64,000 bases of DNA from Pseudomonas putida. Lineage in GTDB: Bacteria; Pseudomonadota; Gammaproteobacteria; Pseudomonadales; Pseudomonadaceae. How positions within the stretch are numbered: position 1 is the stretch's first letter; every line of letters starts with the position of its first letter. The notes below the pieces were generated by a model. The model was not told the DNA's origin. It saw only the letters and a program-made list of their open reading frames with translations, and did not search any database. Below, piece by piece: positions 1 through 7,364 of this stretch. The stretch covers positions 3,286,001 to 3,350,000 of the forward strand of contig NZ_CP113097.1 of the NCBI RefSeq assembly GCF_026625125.1. The letters are read 5' to 3'. The translations under genes and the position numbers were made by a program.

Positions 1-663
1 CGGCAAGACGGTCAATGCATCGTCGGAACTCAACAGCGGTGGCAGATCGAAAATGCAGATGCGCGAGTCGTAGCGGTCGCGCAGGTCGCTGATCAGGCTG
101 TTGACCTTGGGCGATGACAACATCTCGGTGGACATCGGTATCGGTTCGCGCGTCGGCAACACCACGAACCGCGGCAAGGTCGGGTTGACCAGAACCTCTT
201 CCAGCCAGGCCTCGCCTTTGAGGAGCTCATTCAGCGCTTTGTCCATGGGCAGGCCAAGGCTGCTGCCAACCCTGGGTCGGCGCAGGTCGAAGTCCACCAG
301 CAATGCGGTCTTGGTGGTGTGGTGGGCGATGCTCATGGCCAGGTTGACAGCCAGCACCGTCTTGCCCGCCTCGGGTGTCGGCGACGTGATCGCCAACGTC
401 CGCCAGCCGTTTTCTTCCATGGCCTGCAACACTTGCGTGCGCAGCAGGTCGATGGCCCCGCTCATGTTCGAGTTCTTGTTGTAGGAGACGATCCGGTTGC
501 GTTCCAGGTGCTCCGCCCGCAGCGGCACCACCTTGGTCTGCACGTAGTCGAATTGCCCCAAGGCTTCGGGCTGCTGCGGCACGAGCGGCGCCTTTGGCGT
601 TTCAGCGGGAGAGGGAGAAACCTGATGAATGTTCTTTCCGATAGCCGGCGTAATTCTGTCCAT
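1..663 (-). CDS. Exopolysaccharide-locus tyrosine kinase (CpsD/CapB type), C-terminus cut by window edge
   Basis: The reading frame starts at an ATG at 663 and stays open to base 1, so about 221 residues are visible and the C-terminus (where a tyrosine cluster would lie) is missing. The protein has the BY-kinase ATPase layout: a Walker A-like loop TSPTPEAGKT, a Walker A' strand ALLVDFDLRRP, and a Walker B-like strand ICIFDLPPLLSSDDA. Proteins of this family phosphorylate themselves on tyrosines and work with a Wzz-type membrane partner to control polymerisation and export of an exopolysaccharide. That partner is the gene immediately upstream, which ends 12 bases before this start, so the two are cotranscribed. 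It resembles the autokinase subfamily found in PEP-CTERM loci. The substrate polymer is not known from the sequence. Confidence 0.85.
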   Translation of the reverse strand, partial: MDRITPAIGKNIHQVSPSPAETPKAPLVPQQPEALGQFDYVQTKVVPLRAEHLERNRIVSYNKNSNMSGAIDLLRTQVLQAMEENGWRTLAITSPTPEAGKTVLAVNLAMSIAHHTTKTALLVDFDLRRPRVGSSLGLPMDKALNELLKGEAWLEEVLVNPTLPRFVVLPTREPIPMSTEMLSSPKVNSLISDLRDRYDSRICIFDLPPLLSSDDALTVLP

Positions 664-675
664 CGCTGCGCTTCC

Positions 676-2244
676 CTATTCAAACCGAGCCATAGCTTTA
701 AACAGCAAGAGGTCCAGTGGCATGTAGAACACATGGACGACCACCATCAGCATAGCAATCAGTAACAACCCGGCGATGGCCAGCAGCACTCGCCACTTGC
801 GGCGCCTGGCTACATCGGCCTGGGTGGAAATGTACGGCACGGCCACCAGCACGCGCTTGCCCAGCACGCTTTCCAGGGCACCGACACCGCGGATACGCTG
901 GTTGAGCATTTCCAGCAGCATCACCAGCCCGCCACCCACTGCCGGCGCCAACACCAGGCCCAATGCGACAATTTTCTTGCGGTTGGGCTTGACCGGTTTT
1001 TCCGGCATCAACGGTGGCTCCAGCAGCACGAAGCGCTCGGCCTTGTTTTCCTGCTCCAGGCTTTCGGTGATCTTCGCGCCCATTTCCTTGTTGCGGATTT
1101 CCTCGTACTTCTTGCGCGCGTTGTCATGGTCGCGCATCAGCGTGACCAAGCCGCGCTCCACCTGCGGAGCCTCGAGAATATCGGCCTCATAGCCTTCCAT
1201 CTTGGCCGTCAGCTGCCGTTTCTGTTCAGCAAGCGATGCGATGCGCGACTGAGTAGCCGCCATTTTGGTGCGTACCCTGGCGGCGTCGAGATTCATGGCC
1301 GCCGCAGCGGCGATCCCCTTCTCGCCCGACGCCTTGAGCAGGTCGATCTTGCGTTTGACGGCCACCACATCGGGGTGCGCCGGGGTGTACTTGGTCAACA
1401 GCCGGGCATACTCGGCCTTGAGGCTGGCCAGGTCCTGGGGTTGGTCCGCCGCGGCAGGCCTGCCGCCAGCCGCCTGTGCGGGCACCCCCGCATTGGCAGC
1501 CGCCAGTTCCAGTTCCAGGTAACGCAGCTCTTCCTGGGCGGCCTTGTAGTCACGATCGACCTCGCGGAACTCCAGCTCCGAACGCGACAACATGCTCATG
1601 CGCAACTGCTGGTTCTCAGGCAAGGCATTGGCGTGCGCCTGCTTGAAATCCGCCAGCTTGTTCTCGAGTGCAGCCAACTCGGCGCCCAGCTTGTTCGCCT
1701 CTTGGGTAAGGAATTCAGTGGTCTCGGTTGCCCGTTCGGTGCGCTGCTTCATGTTTTCGTTGAGAAACAGCGTCACCAGTTCGTCGGCCACTTCCTTGGC
1801 AACTTCAGGGCGCTTGTCCTCGTACGAAACCGTGAACGCGACCGTCGCCTCGCCACGCCCTTTGACATAGGTACTGAGCGTGGCCACGGCGATGGCGCTG
1901 CGCATCTGCTCGATCTTGTCGGTTTCGCTGAACTGCCTGCCCTTGTCGGCGAACAGATTGTATTTGTCGATGATCTTCAGCAGGTTCTCGCGGGTCATGA
2001 CGCGCTGACGAATGACCTCGATACGCTCATCGGCAAAACTGTTGTTGTTGGCCGAGACCAGCTCCGGGGAAATCTGCTGCGACTCCACCAGGATGGTGCC
2101 GGTCGACTGGTAAAGGGGCGGCACCGTGACGGCCACCCCGATGGTTGCCGCAATCACGACCACGATGCTCACCCCCAGCAACAAGGCGCGGTCCTTGATG
2201 ATGGCGATGTAATCTTTAAGGGAAAGCTCGTAGTCCGATTTCAT
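676..2244 (-). CDS. Polysaccharide chain-length determinant (Wzz/GumC-like, PEP-CTERM locus type)
   Basis: This 522-residue inner-membrane protein has a short cytoplasmic N-terminus, a first membrane helix at about residues 20-45, a long periplasmic region rich in alpha-helical coiled coil (roughly 150-400), and a second helix near 430-450 after a proline-rich stretch (EPPLMPEKPVKPNRKK). A third helix (VLLAIAGLLLIAMLMVVV) near the C-terminus is typical of the chain-length proteins of PEP-CTERM-type EPS loci. It should set polymer length together with the kinase encoded just downstream. The frame also has a GTG three codons earlier (2253); I chose the ATG at 2244 because a GGTGG sequence precedes it. 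It lies between the outer-membrane barrel gene and the kinase with only short gaps. Confidence 0.87.
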   Translation of the reverse strand: MKSDYELSLKDYIAIIKDRALLLGVSIVVVIAATIGVAVTVPPLYQSTGTILVESQQISPELVSANNNSFADERIEVIRQRVMTRENLLKIIDKYNLFADKGRQFSETDKIEQMRSAIAVATLSTYVKGRGEATVAFTVSYEDKRPEVAKEVADELVTLFLNENMKQRTERATETTEFLTQEANKLGAELAALENKLADFKQAHANALPENQQLRMSMLSRSELEFREVDRDYKAAQEELRYLELELAAANAGVPAQAAGGRPAAADQPQDLASLKAEYARLLTKYTPAHPDVVAVKRKIDLLKASGEKGIAAAAAMNLDAARVRTKMAATQSRIASLAEQKRQLTAKMEGYEADILEAPQVERGLVTLMRDHDNARKKYEEIRNKEMGAKITESLEQENKAERFVLLEPPLMPEKPVKPNRKKIVALGLVLAPAVGGGLVMLLEMLNQRIRGVGALESVLGKRVLVAVPYISTQADVARRRKWRVLLAIAGLLLIAMLMVVVHVFYMPLDLLLFKAMARFE

Positions 2245-2264
2245 GGTGGCCACCCGTGCGAGAG

Positions 2265-3380
2265 TCAGATGTCGGGATATCTGTACGTCAACGTCAATCC
2301 GGCAATGGTCGCGTCAGCATCGGGCAAGCCGTCTTGCTGGCGCTGCTTGTACATCAACGAAAAACGCAGGTCCCAGGCCGGTGAGAATGCGCGGCTGGCC
2401 CACACGCCATAGGTTTGCAAGGTGTTTGGCGACACCCCTTTGCTGTCCTGCCAGGAGGCATCCACACCTACGCGGTCGACCTCGGTGACCAGGTAGCTCC
2501 AGCTGCCGCGCACCATGTCGAGCTCGGCGAAGCCGCCCTCGGCGTTGGCTACGGTGCTGCGCTCAGCGCTGAAGCTGGCGTCGGCACGTTCACCCCGGTA
2601 GAACAGCGACATGCCACCTTCACCGCGGCGCCCGCCGCCAGACCCCGTGGTCTTGTTGACGCCGACATGCACCTCGCCTTCGAACCGTTCGGAAAAACGG
2701 TGCCTGACGCCGATGTTCGGGCTGTAGCTGTTGGAAGACACTGCGGTGGTATCGTCCTGCGGCTCATAACGCCTGGCGTCGAAACCGGTGATGATGTCGG
2801 TGCGCTCACTCCAGGCGTAGGTCCACGTCGATGTGTTGTACAACTCGTCGTAACCGGTCAGCGAACTGATGTCATAACGGGCATGCGAATAGGTAAGGAC
2901 GTTGGCCAGCGTACTGCGCTCGGTCACCGCACTGCTCCAGTTGCCCTCGAGCGTGGACATCCTCTGCGTGCCGTCGGTGGTGACCACACCGGTGTCCTGC
3001 ACCGCACCGGACAGCGTGGAGCTTTCCTCGTAACGCGCCAGCAAACCGAAGCCTCCGGTCTGGGTTTCGCGCTGCCACCCCAGGCTCAACTTGGGGTCTT
3101 CTCGGTCATCGACGATCGACCGATCGGATGAGCGCAGCACGTTGACACCCAGGCCCAGACGCAACTGGTCGCGGTCGAACTGACCGATCAGGCTGTAGTC
3201 GGGCGCAATGATGGTACGCGTCACACCTTCCTCCTCGGACGTCAGGAGCAATGGGTTGCTGTCGTACTCGACAGACGTGGGCACCACGACTGAAGACTGC
3301 CAAATGGCGGCGTGAACCACCCCAGACAACGGCAACATCATCATTGCCGTTGCAATATGCGTTGGTCTAAAAATAGGCAC
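2265..3380 (-). CDS. Outer-membrane beta-barrel protein of the EPS locus
   Basis: This 371-residue protein begins with a signal peptide (TAMMMLPLSGVVHAA, cleavage near residue 25). The rest is a series of alternating polar/hydrophobic strands rich in aromatic residues, ending in TLTYRYPDI, as in outer-membrane barrels. Similar proteins occur beside Wza/Wzz/kinase genes in PEP-CTERM-type EPS loci, where a role as outer-membrane exit pore or secretion accessory is suspected but not settled. The start is a GTG at 3380 with a poor ribosome-binding site; no better start exists before the signal peptide. It sits 25 bases after the export-protein gene and 20 bases before the chain-length gene, so one transcript is likely. 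Confidence 0.78.
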   Translation of the reverse strand: MPIFRPTHIATAMMMLPLSGVVHAAIWQSSVVVPTSVEYDSNPLLLTSEEEGVTRTIIAPDYSLIGQFDRDQLRLGLGVNVLRSSDRSIVDDREDPKLSLGWQRETQTGGFGLLARYEESSTLSGAVQDTGVVTTDGTQRMSTLEGNWSSAVTERSTLANVLTYSHARYDISSLTGYDELYNTSTWTYAWSERTDIITGFDARRYEPQDDTTAVSSNSYSPNIGVRHRFSERFEGEVHVGVNKTTGSGGGRRGEGGMSLFYRGERADASFSAERSTVANAEGGFAELDMVRGSWSYLVTEVDRVGVDASWQDSKGVSPNTLQTYGVWASRAFSPAWDLRFSLMYKQRQQDGLPDADATIAGLTLTYRYPDI

Positions 3381-3405: not shown

Positions 3406-3963
3406 TCAAGGTACGACCAGCGTATCGCCAGCCTGAAGTTGGAAGTTGGTGGACATGTCGCGCCCAGAAACCAGATCCTTGTAGCGCACCGGCAATACCT
3501 TTTGTGACGGGCCGCTGCCGCGGATGACCTTGATGGCACTTTCGTCGGCGAATTTGTCCATTCCACCCGACATGCTCAGCGCCTGAAGCACCGCCGTAGG
3601 GCCTGCCATGGGCACCGGCCCTGGCTTGATGACTTTGCCTTGCACATACACAAGGTTGCCCGCCGTGCCAGTGACGACGACGCTTACGTTGGGATCGGCC
3701 AGGTAGGGTTTCAGGCCGGCGGTGACCTTGGCGGCAACCGCCGTGACGTCCAGGCCGGCCACATCGATGCGGCCAGCCAGTGGGAAGGTGATGCTGCCAT
3801 CGGGCAGTACGACGGTTTCCTGGCGAAGGGTGTCCTCCTGCCAGACCGAAATCAGCACCCGGTCACCGGGGCTGAGCAGATACGCTGAATTGCCTTGATC
3901 AGCAACACTGCTGCCGGACCAAGCCACCAATACGCAGAAGATGGAAATCAGCAAACGCGCCAT
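3406..3963 (-). CDS. Polysaccharide export protein (Wza-type, Poly_export plus SLBB)
   Basis: This 185-residue exported protein has a signal peptide (about residues 1-21) followed by a polysaccharide-export domain (YLLSPGDRVLISVWQE, LPDGSITFPLAGRIDV) and one SLBB-type domain (VYVQGKVIKPGPVPM ... LQAGDTLVVP). Members form or line the periplasmic/outer-membrane channel for exopolysaccharide. There is no lipobox cysteine at the signal cleavage site, and the protein is much shorter than Wza, so it probably needs the neighbouring beta-barrel for outer-membrane passage. That is how short export proteins of PEP-CTERM-type loci are arranged. An ATG at 3963 has GGAGGG seven bases upstream. It is the first gene after the predicted promoter at 4146-4173. 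Confidence 0.85.
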   Translation of the reverse strand: MARLLISIFCVLVAWSGSSVADQGNSAYLLSPGDRVLISVWQEDTLRQETVVLPDGSITFPLAGRIDVAGLDVTAVAAKVTAGLKPYLADPNVSVVVTGTAGNLVYVQGKVIKPGPVPMAGPTAVLQALSMSGGMDKFADESAIKVIRGSGPSQKVLPVRYKDLVSGRDMSTNFQLQAGDTLVVP

Positions 3964-4267: not shown

Positions 4268-4444
4268 TCAAATTTTCTTTCTGTTGGCAACTGCGACAAA
4301 CCCGATTACCGCAAACGCAAACACCCAGCCTGCCGTCGCCAGAGGAACAATGTTGGTCTGGCTCATATAAGAGTCAGCCGCCCGTGCCGCCCCGCTCAAT
4401 AACACCAACAAAAAGATGGATTTGATGAACAGTGTTGAGCGCAT
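4268..4444 (-). CDS. Small secreted protein with a PEP-CTERM/VPLPA-like C-terminal sorting signal
   Basis: This 58-residue protein starts at an ATG (4444) preceded by a perfect AGGAGG five bases upstream. The N-terminus is a signal peptide (MRSTLFIKSIFLLVLLSG, cleavage after ARA near residue 22). Only about 10 residues of mature sequence (ADSYMSQTNI) precede a C-terminal tripartite tail: VPLATAGW, a hydrophobic helix of about 18 residues, and the basic end NRKKI. The tail aligns without gaps with the exosortase signal pattern VPLPAA-W-F..A..G....A.RRKK. Its place inside an EPS locus with PEP-CTERM-type partners fits. No exosortase gene is visible; one could lie left of the window. An alternative reading is a small single-pass membrane protein with no processing. 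Confidence 0.75.
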   Translation of the reverse strand: MRSTLFIKSIFLLVLLSGAARAADSYMSQTNIVPLATAGWVFAFAVIGFVAVANRKKI

Positions 4445-4783
4445 GGTCCCCTCCTACGAAGAGGAAAATTTATTATGGGTTTTTTGGCGGAGGAATGAAT
4501 CGCTGTTGATTTGAGCTTATGGGCACGATGCCATTACGTCAACGTTCCGACACCATAATAAATCTCAATCGGCCACCCCCTGATTAGTCAAATTTTCGAC
4601 ATGCAGAAGATGCAGGCTCTTTTGAGGGTGGCCAATCTGTAGCAACTCATTGAAATGGCGGAAAAAAGAGTTTTTCATCGAGACCCCCAATGGCTCGCTT
4701 GCGGATAGACACACCCACGCGCGAGTTGAACGATGTGTTTCAAAGACGAGAAACAGTGCGAATCATTGCGCTTCGCGTCACGC
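4445..4783. other. Intergenic region upstream of the small PEP-CTERM-like gene
   Basis: No further gene is seen. An 8-bp inverted repeat (GGCCACCC at 4571-4578 and GGGTGGCC at 4626-4633, 47-base gap) lies in the middle. The stretch is AT-richer than its surroundings. On the minus strand a CATAAT hexamer just upstream of the small gene's ribosome-binding site could be a -10 box, but no good -35 accompanies it. Confidence 0.35.
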
Positions 4784-5902
4784 TTATGACGGGAAAAGAT
4801 CGAGGGTACGTTCGACCTCATCGATATCGATCGTGAAGCCATCGCCCTGCGGCATACCGACCACAAAGCCGAAATGCTGATAGTCACGGTCCGTCAGGTA
4901 CTTGTAGTAGCTGACGAAGCGGTTGGGCGGCTGCAGCGTCAGCAGCGAGCCACCTGAGCGCAGTACGTTGACGCCGTGAACCAGCTGGCTGCCTTCCACG
5001 CCGATCACCGTCCTGGCCCCTGCGCACGCCGCAACGATGGTCGGCACATCGCATTTGAGTGGGTCGATGACTCGAAAGCCACGGTGCCTGCGCAGGTGTT
5101 CGGCGACCTCGAGTTCATTGCGCATGAACCGCAATTCCCCTTCACAGCCGCGTAGAATGAACACGCCGGGGTGCGTCACAGGGTCCACATGCGACAGCAA
5201 CTTGTCGCCCATGGCGCGGTAGCGCCGATGCCGGCTGCTGTTGTTGCTCACGTCATCGAAGAGCACCAGTTCCTTGAAAAAGGCGCTACGCAAGCGCAAG
5301 GGCTGCATGTCCAGCCACGCCTCGTAACCGGGGGCTTGAGTGAACAGTGGAAACCTGGCCGACGGTGCCGTGGTAACAGGGATGCCCTCGTTGCGCGCAA
5401 GTGTGTAGGTCGGGCAATTTTCCATCAACCAGGTACCGAACCACGTGTTGCCGTTTTGCGTGCAATACACGGCACCGCGCTCGATTTCGTAGTCCACCGT
5501 TACCCGCGGAAAGGTGCTGGGCTTCAACGACAGCCAGTGGGTGGCATCGTCTTTGTACAAAGCCCCGTCAATCAGCCATACATCCTTCAGCAGGTAGCCC
5601 CGCGTCGGGCCTTGCTGCGTAAGAATACCGCCGTGCATGGTGCCGGCGGGGTGAACATGCGGGAAAAACCGCTTGGCCTCCCAGCCGGTCACACGCTCCA
5701 ACTGGTTGGGCAGGAAAAACGCCGGTGGGGAGACGGTGGTCTCACCGGGTGCAATGTCCCAGGTTTTAACCGCGCGCGTTTTTATGTCGATATCGGCTTT
5801 ACGGGCAAGCCGCTTTCTCGCGATGTGTTTGTAGGCGGCCAGTGTCCAGGCAGTTTCGCTGGAGATCAGCGTCGAACTGAACTTAGAAATATCGCTACCC
5901 AT
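4784..5902 (-). CDS. Glycosyltransferase family 61 (DUF563-like) protein
   Basis: This 372-residue protein resembles GT61 enzymes, which transfer sugars such as xylose or GlcNAc-type residues to glycans. The C-terminal half carries the usual signature: a VFILRG strand, a conserved EL..AEHLRRHRGFRVIDP segment, and GVEGSQLVHGVN, which replaces the more common GxHGAGLxN loop. The middle contains a NTWFGTWLMENCP segment typical of the family. The frame extends to a TTG at 5941, but the ATG at 5902 has AAGGGG at good spacing and is preferred. It follows the acetyltransferase-like gene on the same strand and probably decorates the polymer made by this locus. Donor and acceptor cannot be told from the sequence. 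Confidence 0.78.
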   Translation of the reverse strand: MGSDISKFSSTLISSETAWTLAAYKHIARKRLARKADIDIKTRAVKTWDIAPGETTVSPPAFFLPNQLERVTGWEAKRFFPHVHPAGTMHGGILTQQGPTRGYLLKDVWLIDGALYKDDATHWLSLKPSTFPRVTVDYEIERGAVYCTQNGNTWFGTWLMENCPTYTLARNEGIPVTTAPSARFPLFTQAPGYEAWLDMQPLRLRSAFFKELVLFDDVSNNSSRHRRYRAMGDKLLSHVDPVTHPGVFILRGCEGELRFMRNELEVAEHLRRHRGFRVIDPLKCDVPTIVAACAGARTVIGVEGSQLVHGVNVLRSGGSLLTLQPPNRFVSYYKYLTDRDYQHFGFVVGMPQGDGFTIDIDEVERTLDLFPS

Positions 5903-5976
5903 GGAAAGCCCCTTTATAAGAGCGCCAAAAAAAGATCGCAAGTAACGTCCTTATCTAGGCCGGCCTTGACGCTGAG

Positions 5977-7125
5977 TTAGTTGGACAATACCCTTTCCAT
6001 CGTGGGCGGTGATTTCAAGTTCGCATAGCGTTGACGCAAGTTCTCGAAGAACAATTCCCCCGAACTTTTAGCCCCATACAGGTATATTTTGTGCAAGCCG
6101 CCAAACACCATTTCGTGGTAGCGGCTGGCGAGCGCTTCATCACTGGACCCTTCCGGCAAACCGAGGTGCAGCGTCAACTTGTCGCCTTCGACCGCAAACA
6201 GTGGCGTGTCCCAAAGAAAACGCGCCACGCCCGTCTTGGGTAGGCGGATGAACATGTAAGCGTGGTTGCCGAGTGAGTCGATATCCCCCCCGCGCCGGCG
6301 TTTCCACTTCAATAACCCATCGTCCGGGCGCGCCAGACAAAGGCCGATGTCGTAGTAGTCGAAGCCATTGGCCAAGGCCCACTCCAATGCCATGTAGGTG
6401 GTGATGGAGTTGACCTCACGCAGTTTCTTGGCATCGGAAAACACGGCTTCGCAGTAACCGAAACGTAACGTGCTCCAGTAGCGCTTGCCCGCCCGGGTTA
6501 TCTCACAGCCAAGGTGGCAGGCAACCACCTCGCCGTTCAACGTGATCAAGTCCAGGCGGCCGACTCCCTTGGCGAGGCGGAACACCTCCTCGGTGGGAAA
6601 CTGCGCCGCATGAATGCCTTGCCGTGCGCTGGCATACGGCCGCAGCAGATCACGGTCGGCCATGGCAATTTCGTCGTCAGCCAGCGTTTGCCTCATCTCA
6701 TAGAGCGGTCGGTTCTTGCGGATACTGCGGCGCAATTCACTGTCATAGCGCGCGGTGATATCGTCCAGCGAGCGCCCCAGCGGTACAACGGCACTCAGGT
6801 AGTGCGGAACGGACAGCGCACCGAGGGTGGGTAACTCACTGACGACGACGCGGCTGGGCAAGCTGCCCGCCGAGCCCTCGGGTTGTGGTGCCTGCTGCTG
6901 CGCCTTGCCGCCTATCAACAGCTTGGCCATCTCACGCTGTTGCTTTCGGCCGATGTACAGAATTTCGTAGGGGCTTTCCTGCTGCAGCCTGAACCGGGCG
7001 ATCTCCCAATGCCAAAAGCACGCCCGCCCCAGCATGTCGCGTAACACGTTTGATACGGTTCTGATCTCGTAACGCAGCGAAGGCGAGATGAGTTTTCGAG
7101 CTACGGCCATCATGTGCGCTTTCAT
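5977..7125 (-). CDS. FemAB/BioF2-like GNAT acyltransferase of the EPS locus
   Basis: The protein (382 residues from the ATG at 7125) looks like the GNAT-fold acetyltransferase group often named BioF2-like. The core runs from about residue 115 to 300 and includes LRRSIRKNRPLYEMRQ, GRLDLITLNGEVVACHLGCE, and FDYYDIGLCLARPDDGLLKWKRR, the last being the usual GL.....G...FK-type closing motif. Such proteins occur in EPS and glycan loci, where they may acylate sugars or amino sugars. A TTG at 7152 is an alternative start (AAGG upstream) that adds nine residues. It is the most upstream gene of the leftward EPS cluster and is divergent from the toxin gene. Confidence 0.7.
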   Translation of the reverse strand: MKAHMMAVARKLISPSLRYEIRTVSNVLRDMLGRACFWHWEIARFRLQQESPYEILYIGRKQQREMAKLLIGGKAQQQAPQPEGSAGSLPSRVVVSELPTLGALSVPHYLSAVVPLGRSLDDITARYDSELRRSIRKNRPLYEMRQTLADDEIAMADRDLLRPYASARQGIHAAQFPTEEVFRLAKGVGRLDLITLNGEVVACHLGCEITRAGKRYWSTLRFGYCEAVFSDAKKLREVNSITTYMALEWALANGFDYYDIGLCLARPDDGLLKWKRRRGGDIDSLGNHAYMFIRLPKTGVARFLWDTPLFAVEGDKLTLHLGLPEGSSDEALASRYHEMVFGGLHKIYLYGAKSSGELFFENLRQRYANLKSPPTMERVLSN

Positions 7126-7364
7126 TTCTTCTTCGACGTCCTTTGAATTCAAACGGCCTTATCGGAAGAGAAGCGGGTTATTGCTCAAGACAGTGACGTA
7201 AGCGACTGATATTCCGACAACATTGCCCCTTGCCGGCCTAACATTCAGTAACAATTTAAGATGCAAGCCCGCGCATTAGCAAGCGGCGTTTTGCAATCAT
7301 CTGCCTTCATTTCATGACGTCAATTTTCTTTCCTGCACGGTTCTAGTCATTAATTACTGCAATG

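Follow-up and report, generated by a model that had tools for sequence, protein, structure and literature searches.

EppA of Pseudomonas putida, a small EPS-locus protein that appears to derive from an exosortase substrate

The eppA gene and its EPS neighbourhood

The whole stretch of DNA analysed here, referred to as the window, comprises 64,000 nucleotides, that is, bases 3286001-3350000 of the 5.86 Mb single-contig genome of a Pseudomonas putida strain. Near its left end lies the 58-codon gene eppA (minus strand, 4268-4444), whose product, MRSTLFIKSIFLLVLLSGAARAADSYMSQTNIVPLATAGWVFAFAVIGFVAVANRKKI, was confirmed by a check of frame and translation. The features of the locus are given below, where short and long homologs are those of 58 and of 114-205 amino acids, respectively.

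4268-4444, minus strand: eppA, 58 codons; signal peptide, 10-residue stub and VPL...W sorting-like tail; family NF046088, E 9.5e-38
4376-4444, minus strand: EppA signal peptide, residues 1-23, ending in AxA (ARA), with the cleavage site placed by eye
4271-4348, minus strand: EppA tail, residues 33-58, homologous to the VPLPA-CTERM signal (motif remnant, helix, ANRKK)
4450-4455, minus strand: ribosome binding site AGGAGG, 5 nt upstream of the eppA ATG
4538-4551, minus strand: palindromic box GTCGGAACGTTGAC, position -107; a box at the equivalent place in 42/44 short homologs
4587-4600, minus strand: palindromic box GTCGAAAATTTGAC, FleQ-box-like, position -156; a box there in 19/44 short and 9/22 long homologs
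3406-3963, minus strand: wza-type export protein, TIGR03027-like (profile search), next downstream of eppA
2265-3380, minus strand: predicted outer-membrane beta-barrel, as assigned in the initial annotation; no family above cut-off
676-2253, minus strand: wzz-type chain-length protein, TIGR03007-like, with three hydrophobic helices (profile and hydropathy)
1-663, minus strand: tyrosine autokinase, TIGR03018-like, running on left of base 1
4784-5941, minus strand (as eppA): glycosyltransferase family 61, next upstream of eppA
5977-7152, minus strand: GNAT-like acetyltransferase of the EPS locus; Pfam match slightly under cut-off

The anatomy described in the initial annotation (AGGAGG, signal peptide, about 10 mature residues, VPL...W, a hydrophobic helix and NRKK) was found in full. 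The signal peptide was called from sequence and hydropathy. The hydrophobic stretch reaches a peak hydropathy of 2.2 over 19 residues and is followed by NRKKI. The NCBIfam family NF046088 (EPS-associated small membrane protein EppA) matches residues 1-58 of 58 at 128.4 bits, against a cut-off of 90 (E 9.5e-38). A protein search with EppA among about 5.8 billion sequences listed 64 proteins including the query, many of them unnamed; the named matches listed are all from Pseudomonas except one labelled Pantoea and one from a compost metagenome. eppA is a real gene, and it is not hidden, because NCBIfam already names its family. It had been described as easily missed by annotation, which does not always hold, as NCBI names EppA in many genomes. 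A chance small open reading frame is ruled out by the NF046088 match, by the 44 short homologs, all of which have exactly 58 codons without a stop, and by dN/dS values of 0.08-0.11.

Upstream of eppA stand two GTCN8GAC palindromes 49 bp apart. Such a palindrome occurs within 200 bp upstream in all 44 short forms, compared with 4.8% in shuffled sequence, and its position recurs: near -110 in 42/44 short forms, near -160 in 19/44 short forms and near -157 in 9/22 long forms. The upstream regions of L201 and L202 were left out of this survey. The portion of the FleQ study available to us (PMC6120874) quotes the consensus sequences GTCaNTAAAtTGAC and GTCAaAAAAtTGAC, states that the motif, apparently GTCAaAAAAtTGAC, occurs twice in pea, and reports a strong FleQ peak upstream of PP_3126 and none upstream of PP_3132. 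By annotation and gene order, PP_3126 would be the wza of the eppA locus; if so, eppA would head a c-di-GMP-controlled EPS unit. FleQ control of eppA is a lead only, since in the same portion of that study the authors could not define a robust FleQ consensus (PMC6120874).

The neighbouring genes had been likened to the EPS set that accompanies PEP-CTERM, and the likeness stands, the locus being of exosortase type: Wzz, the export protein and the kinase are sub-cut-off relatives of XrtA-associated families. In NCBIfam searches, Wzz scored 259.9 bits against TIGR03007 (cut-off 278.85), the wza-type export protein 120.3 bits against TIGR03027 (cut-off 180), and the kinase, of which the in-window part was scored, 118 bits against TIGR03018 (cut-off 230.65). 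The third Wzz helix pointed out earlier is present, and was found in 49/49 loci. It says little, being the least conserved segment of Wzz (identity 51% in short-form and 60% in long-form loci, with 82% in the periplasmic part); the most conserved helix is helix 2 (90% and 94%, respectively). For the same reason, the third helix is not favoured as a specific partner of EppA.

Exosortases and long forms of EppA across the genus

As a rule, a sorting signal is considered meaningful only where its enzyme is present, and the exosortase specific for VPLPA signals is XrtD. Neither PF09721 nor TIGR04178 had a match anywhere in the single-contig host genome, and the VPLPA-CTERM model TIGR03370 gave nothing significant there (best E 3.1), which rules out a working exosortase system in the host. 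The search for an exosortase suggested in the initial annotation thus came back empty, and its proposal of a working exosortase substrate is not supported, no exosortase having been found in the host or in any of the 66 locus carriers described below. As for the TPR and ATPase genes found with XrtD in the genomes described in the next section, no TPR homolog was detected in the host genome at E<=1e-20, tblastn found no match to the ATPase gene within the window or the stretches L054 and L055, and no remnant of XrtD, TPR or ATPase was found by tblastn in the window or L054. EppA itself, run against the sorting-signal profiles as had been advised, matched none of TIGR03370, PF07589 and TIGR02595 (E<=1 in NCBIfam, E<=10 in Pfam).

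The wzz of the eppA locus is present in 66 of 398 sampled genomes of the genus, the weakest full-length match scoring 666 bits and one cut contig 494 bits. A tail protein recognised by NF046088 accompanies it in 66/66: 44 are short, at 58 aa, and 22 long, at 114-205 aa (42 carriers in a 249-genome set, with 27 short and 15 long, plus 24/24 further carriers, with 17 short and 7 long). Conserved copies in related EPS loci, for which a search had been suggested, were thus found in every sampled carrier. The reverse direction, a tail without the locus, was covered in the 249-genome set, with 125 other wzz-free genomes of the 398 lying outside it. There NF046088 had 44 matches, two of them beyond the 42 wzz carriers and hence outside the 66/66 count: G082 (E 0.006), which lacks this type of wzz, and G261, whose contig stops about 0.5 kb past its VPLPA genes and holds no wza or wzz.

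Exosortases were found in 9/398 genomes. None of these nine is among the 66 wzz-locus carriers, in which PF09721 found 0/66; weak PF09721 matches in G024, G086, G211, G214 and G262 (14.5-16.9 bits, cut-off 25.7) were taken as noise. Over the 66 carriers, the VPLPA-CTERM model picked out the EPS-locus protein in five and one 928-codon frame, none above cut-off. Eight other genomes of the genus (G354, G187, G201, G075, G339, G400, G169 and G013; stretches L073-L080) have a different exosortase. The one tested, in L073, is XrtQ (358 bits, cut-off 270) and directly follows a sortase-target-like protein. Since the frame directly before the exosortase ends in a PEP-type tail in 8/8, the two look like a dedicated one-substrate pair.

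In the 22 long-form carriers, the tail gene encodes 114-205 aa, consisting of a signal peptide, a variable middle and a VPLPA-CTERM-like tail, e.g., NAVPLPAAAWLFSSALFGFVVVANRRKV. In 20/22 loci it lies 66-461 bp before wza, after which come the genes for the beta-barrel, Wzz and the kinase; in the other two (L059 of genome G249 and L066 of G100) it is in the same locus, 17-20 kb from wza. Both of these loci are rearranged, with opposite-strand EPS genes between the tail gene and wza. Short-form eppA stands directly before wza in 44/44 loci, verified by BLAST in 25 and by ORF length only in the rest. NF046088 matched the C-termini of 7/7 long forms tested, out of 22, at 35-61 bits, below its cut-off, and it also matches the C-termini of the proteins from the XrtD genomes. 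Long forms that match TIGR03370 score 13.9-24.9 bits, below the cut-off of 25.35, and NCBI labels some long forms as VPLPA-CTERM protein and others as hypothetical.

XrtD systems in Pseudomonas and the origin of EppA

G261, a 77%-complete metagenome bin that may hold foreign contigs, has an XrtD scoring 556.7 bits against TIGR04152 (cut-off 400). On a single contig follow, in order, XrtD, TPR, ATPase, undecaprenyl-phosphate sugar transferase, a full-length VPLPA protein and a second VPLPA-like protein, the TPR, ATPase and transferase being identified by eye. The arrangement is confirmed by two isolates that show the same one, namely P. cuatrocienegasensis (L082, L201; XrtD 563 bits) and P. fluvialis (L083, L202; XrtD 560 bits; cut-off 400). 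Both have the TPR and ATPase genes, an EppA-type full-length protein, the second VPLPA-like protein, and wza, barrel, wzz and kinase genes whose products are 44-72% identical to those of the window. The second VPLPA-like protein directly follows the eppA ortholog in the three XrtD genomes (L201:16456-17034, L202:15599-16177, L058:18862-19431) and precedes wza in the two isolates; outside these three genomes, tblastn of 54 stretches did not find it. In P. cuatrocienegasensis, the translations of L082:16939-17599, a segment separating the transferase gene from the full-length eppA ortholog, give the impression of transposase-like fragments, possibly an insertion sequence.

Broken ends of XrtD were found in two locus carriers. 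When the G261 proteins were searched by tblastn against the 54 stretches, which did not extend to the XrtD genes of the two isolates, XrtD matched outside G261's own contig in one stretch, that of G100. Here the last 29-30 codons survive immediately ahead of the transferase gene (L066:5488-5574, 76% identity, E 4e-9). In G225, an XrtD end broken by a stop and a frame change (L245:12786-12903, joint E 2.4e-5) is directly followed by an intact TPR gene and then the transferase gene, with no match to the ATPase gene in the stretch around TPR. The same genome encodes the longest and least eroded substrate, of 205 aa (L060). A genome-wide search for TPR found it in both XrtD isolates and in 1/66 carriers, again G225 (72% identity), and in G249 a weak TPR-like match of 34 residues (50% identity, E 0.001) lies ahead of the transferase gene. 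Since G100 and G225 keep broken XrtD ends at the expected place, XrtD was lost at least in their lineages. Gain of XrtD by a few Pseudomonas, rather than loss, is disfavoured by these two ends and, weakly, by the TPR-like fragment of G249.

The relationship of EppA to the full-length proteins was traced by profile comparison. A profile of 28 EppA sequences aligned with one of 17 full-length relatives over 41 columns, with 54% identity, a gap-free tail and E 3.7e-15. These 17 came from a protein search, mostly from metagenomes, and their XrtD status is known only through resemblance to G261 and P. fluvialis. The resemblance to exosortase sorting signals noticed in the initial annotation is accordingly homology, specifically with the VPLPA-CTERM of the XrtD system. 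As the alignment extends upstream of VPL, pairing ADSYMSQTN with SDSYISQPS, EppA is an internal deletion of the full-length protein, made up of the signal peptide, the last ectodomain residues and the sorting tail. Could a generic one-helix membrane protein have converged on the look of a sorting signal? EppA alone finds no sorting-signal match in NCBIfam (E<=1) or Pfam (E<=10), which fits such an origin; but the same syntenic place, the long intermediates and gap-free homology reaching into the stub (E 3.7e-15) already refute convergence at the level of homology, and we give it practically no credence.

A tree built on four EPS proteins covered 49 loci (25 short, 22 long and 2 XrtD) and has no root outside Pseudomonas. 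In it, the short forms make up one clan with support 100. All long forms except L060 are grouped, also with support 100, and L060 falls beside the XrtD pair with a weak support of 56. The simplest reading of this is a single collapse to 58 aa. Taken together, homologs with XrtD in the same operon and the broken XrtD ends, along with synteny and the tree, show that EppA descends from an XrtD substrate and has lost the ectodomain.

The tail has changed unevenly. The second Pro of VPLPA (-4 from W) is present in 17/17 full-length relatives, 2/3 known XrtD genomes, 8/22 long forms and 0/44 short forms, and the first Pro (-6 from W) is kept in 18/22 long and 42/44 short forms. W, G+8, F+9, A+13 and N+14 are invariant in 22/22 long and 44/44 short forms. 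Judging by this pattern, the recognition motif has relaxed, and the helix and AN end have held. A highly diverged or non-homologous processing enzyme is possible, and EppA might still be sorted by an unrecognised, non-exosortase enzyme that cuts or transfers it at the tail. The whole tail architecture (motif remnant, helix, basic end), with P at -6 in 42/44, would suit such an enzyme. However, the residues lost are those of the cleavage motif, the second Pro standing at 0/44, and in the 66 genomes the VPLPA model found the locus protein in five, none over cut-off, with PF09721 at 0/66. We therefore regard continued sorting as very unlikely.

Selection, proposed role and comparison with known systems

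For the 44 short forms, dN/dS is 0.080 over all 946 pairs and 0.108 over 138 nearer pairs. By segment (all/nearer pairs), it is 0.070/0.090 for the signal peptide, 0.058/0.088 for the tail and 0.108/0.206 for the stub. In the 22 long forms, the tail has 0.102 (231 pairs) and 0.121 (167 nearer pairs), the middle 0.537/0.565 and the signal peptide 0.394/0.410. These values come from simple pooled pairwise comparisons in which synonymous sites are close to saturation, so differences between segments mean more than the absolute figures. eppA is under strong purifying selection and is not decaying. Within the long forms, whose genomes lack the enzyme, no segment is under tighter constraint than the tail; in the short forms, signal peptide and tail are constrained about equally, so that only the long forms set the tail apart. 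Part of the constraint on the tail may be inherited, as it is already 91% identical among 14 full-length relatives (middle 59%), compared with 83% among the 22 long forms (middle 41%). Its strict conservation suggests that the tail has a job of its own.

The initial annotation had offered a diverged relic of a substrate as a second possibility. The ancestry holds, given the homology with XrtD substrates, but the strong purifying selection on EppA shows that it is not an idle relic. A functionless substrate degenerating after the loss of XrtD would agree with the erosion of the ectodomain, the loosening of the VPLPA motif and the decay of XrtD itself. The AlphaFold model of a 165-aa form also leans this way, being largely coil (pLDDT 47.3, pTM 0.14, low confidence throughout). 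A full-length homolog was modelled as partly beta (pLDDT 51.8, pTM 0.50), and both models are too weak for a fold search. Against decay, the tail protein is kept in 66/66 carriers, 44/44 short forms are intact and dN/dS is about 0.1, and this reading is strongly disfavoured, with very little probability left to it. It had also been stated that a tail conserved only as a generic membrane anchor, with exosortases absent, would refute the proposal; exosortases are indeed absent, and the tail is conserved residue by residue, not merely as a generic anchor.

We hold it quite probable that EppA is the reduction product of an XrtD substrate, retained as a one-helix inner-membrane protein that docks on the EPS complex; a role as a one-helix part of the EPS export machine is likely. 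As homology, synteny, remnants and tree show, the ancestral Pseudomonas EPS locus held XrtD, TPR, ATPase and, before wza, an exported protein of about 220 aa with a VPLPA-CTERM end. In the sampled locus carriers, XrtD has gone or survives as a broken end. The substrate ectodomain shrank stepwise (205, 165, 114 aa), and its deletion in the P. putida-type clade left only the signal peptide, a stub of about 10 residues and the tail. EppA would enter the Sec pathway, and signal peptidase I would remove residues 1-23. The tail helix would stop transfer and stay in the inner membrane, with the stub outside, NRKK inside and no exosortase processing. There the conserved W-A-G-F-AN face may pack against a putative component of EPS synthesis or export and aid its assembly or regulation, with eppA probably co-expressed from a FleQ-type, c-di-GMP-responsive promoter. 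PMC full-text searches found no report of an eppA phenotype.

EppA could instead be a regulatory peptide, a signal or inhibitor, either released or held in the membrane, rather than a structural partner of the EPS complex. Its small size and the conserved boxes that eppA adjoins are compatible with this. Yet constraint is found in the signal peptide, helix and AN end and is weakest in the exposed stub (dN/dS 0.11-0.21), which makes a peptide of this kind unlikely. Returning to EppA as a docked one-helix protein, we may go a step further, though rather doubtfully: the sorting tail may have a second, older job, in which its helix docks proteins onto the EPS complex and XrtD merely releases them. 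If this is true, docking alone would keep the tail alive after the loss of XrtD, down to 58 aa, and it would explain the place of exosortases in EPS loci.

The sorting signal outlives its enzyme in all 66 sampled carriers of the locus, and the broken XrtD ends in two of them fix the direction as loss. P. putida, with its biofilm genetics, offers a laboratory-friendly test case for a direct interaction of exosortase tails with the EPS machinery, which might be why exosortases and EPS loci go together. As a caution, a VPLPA-CTERM annotation in Pseudomonas need not mean an active exosortase system. What is new is the series from a full-length XrtD substrate to a 58-aa protein, the XrtD remnants, and a sorting tail selected without its sortase; among the titles and abstract openings returned by a PMC full-text search, no paper stood out as linking EppA to XrtD substrates.

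With NF046088 EppA, the protein shares family and full-length match, and it is the long forms that differ, the seven tested (of 22) falling below the cut-off; the name of the family says nothing about where the protein came from or how it works. According to the portions of PMC6120874 and PMC12814882 available to us, the Pea locus of P. putida KT2440 (PP_3126-3128, PP_3132-3142) is similar in having an export module beside an EPS operon, with PP_3126 tentatively equated to the window's wza from annotation and order. The VPLPA-CTERM/XrtD system (TIGR03370/TIGR04152) is like EppA in its signal peptide, EPS locus, gap-free tail and syntenic full-length orthologs in XrtD-bearing Pseudomonas. EppA departs from it in having no ectodomain, no second Pro and no TIGR03370 match, and no exosortase was found in its genome. 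The PEP-CTERM/EpsH (XrtA) system is comparable in its EPS-locus context and in the XrtA-associated families that Wzz, the export protein and the kinase resemble. In the sections available to us, Haft et al. (2006) tie PEP-CTERM to EpsH and require more than two signals before scoring a genome as positive, which limits the noise from degenerate systems and false positives (PMC1569441); unlike in the system described there, a lone signal here persists under selection without its enzyme.
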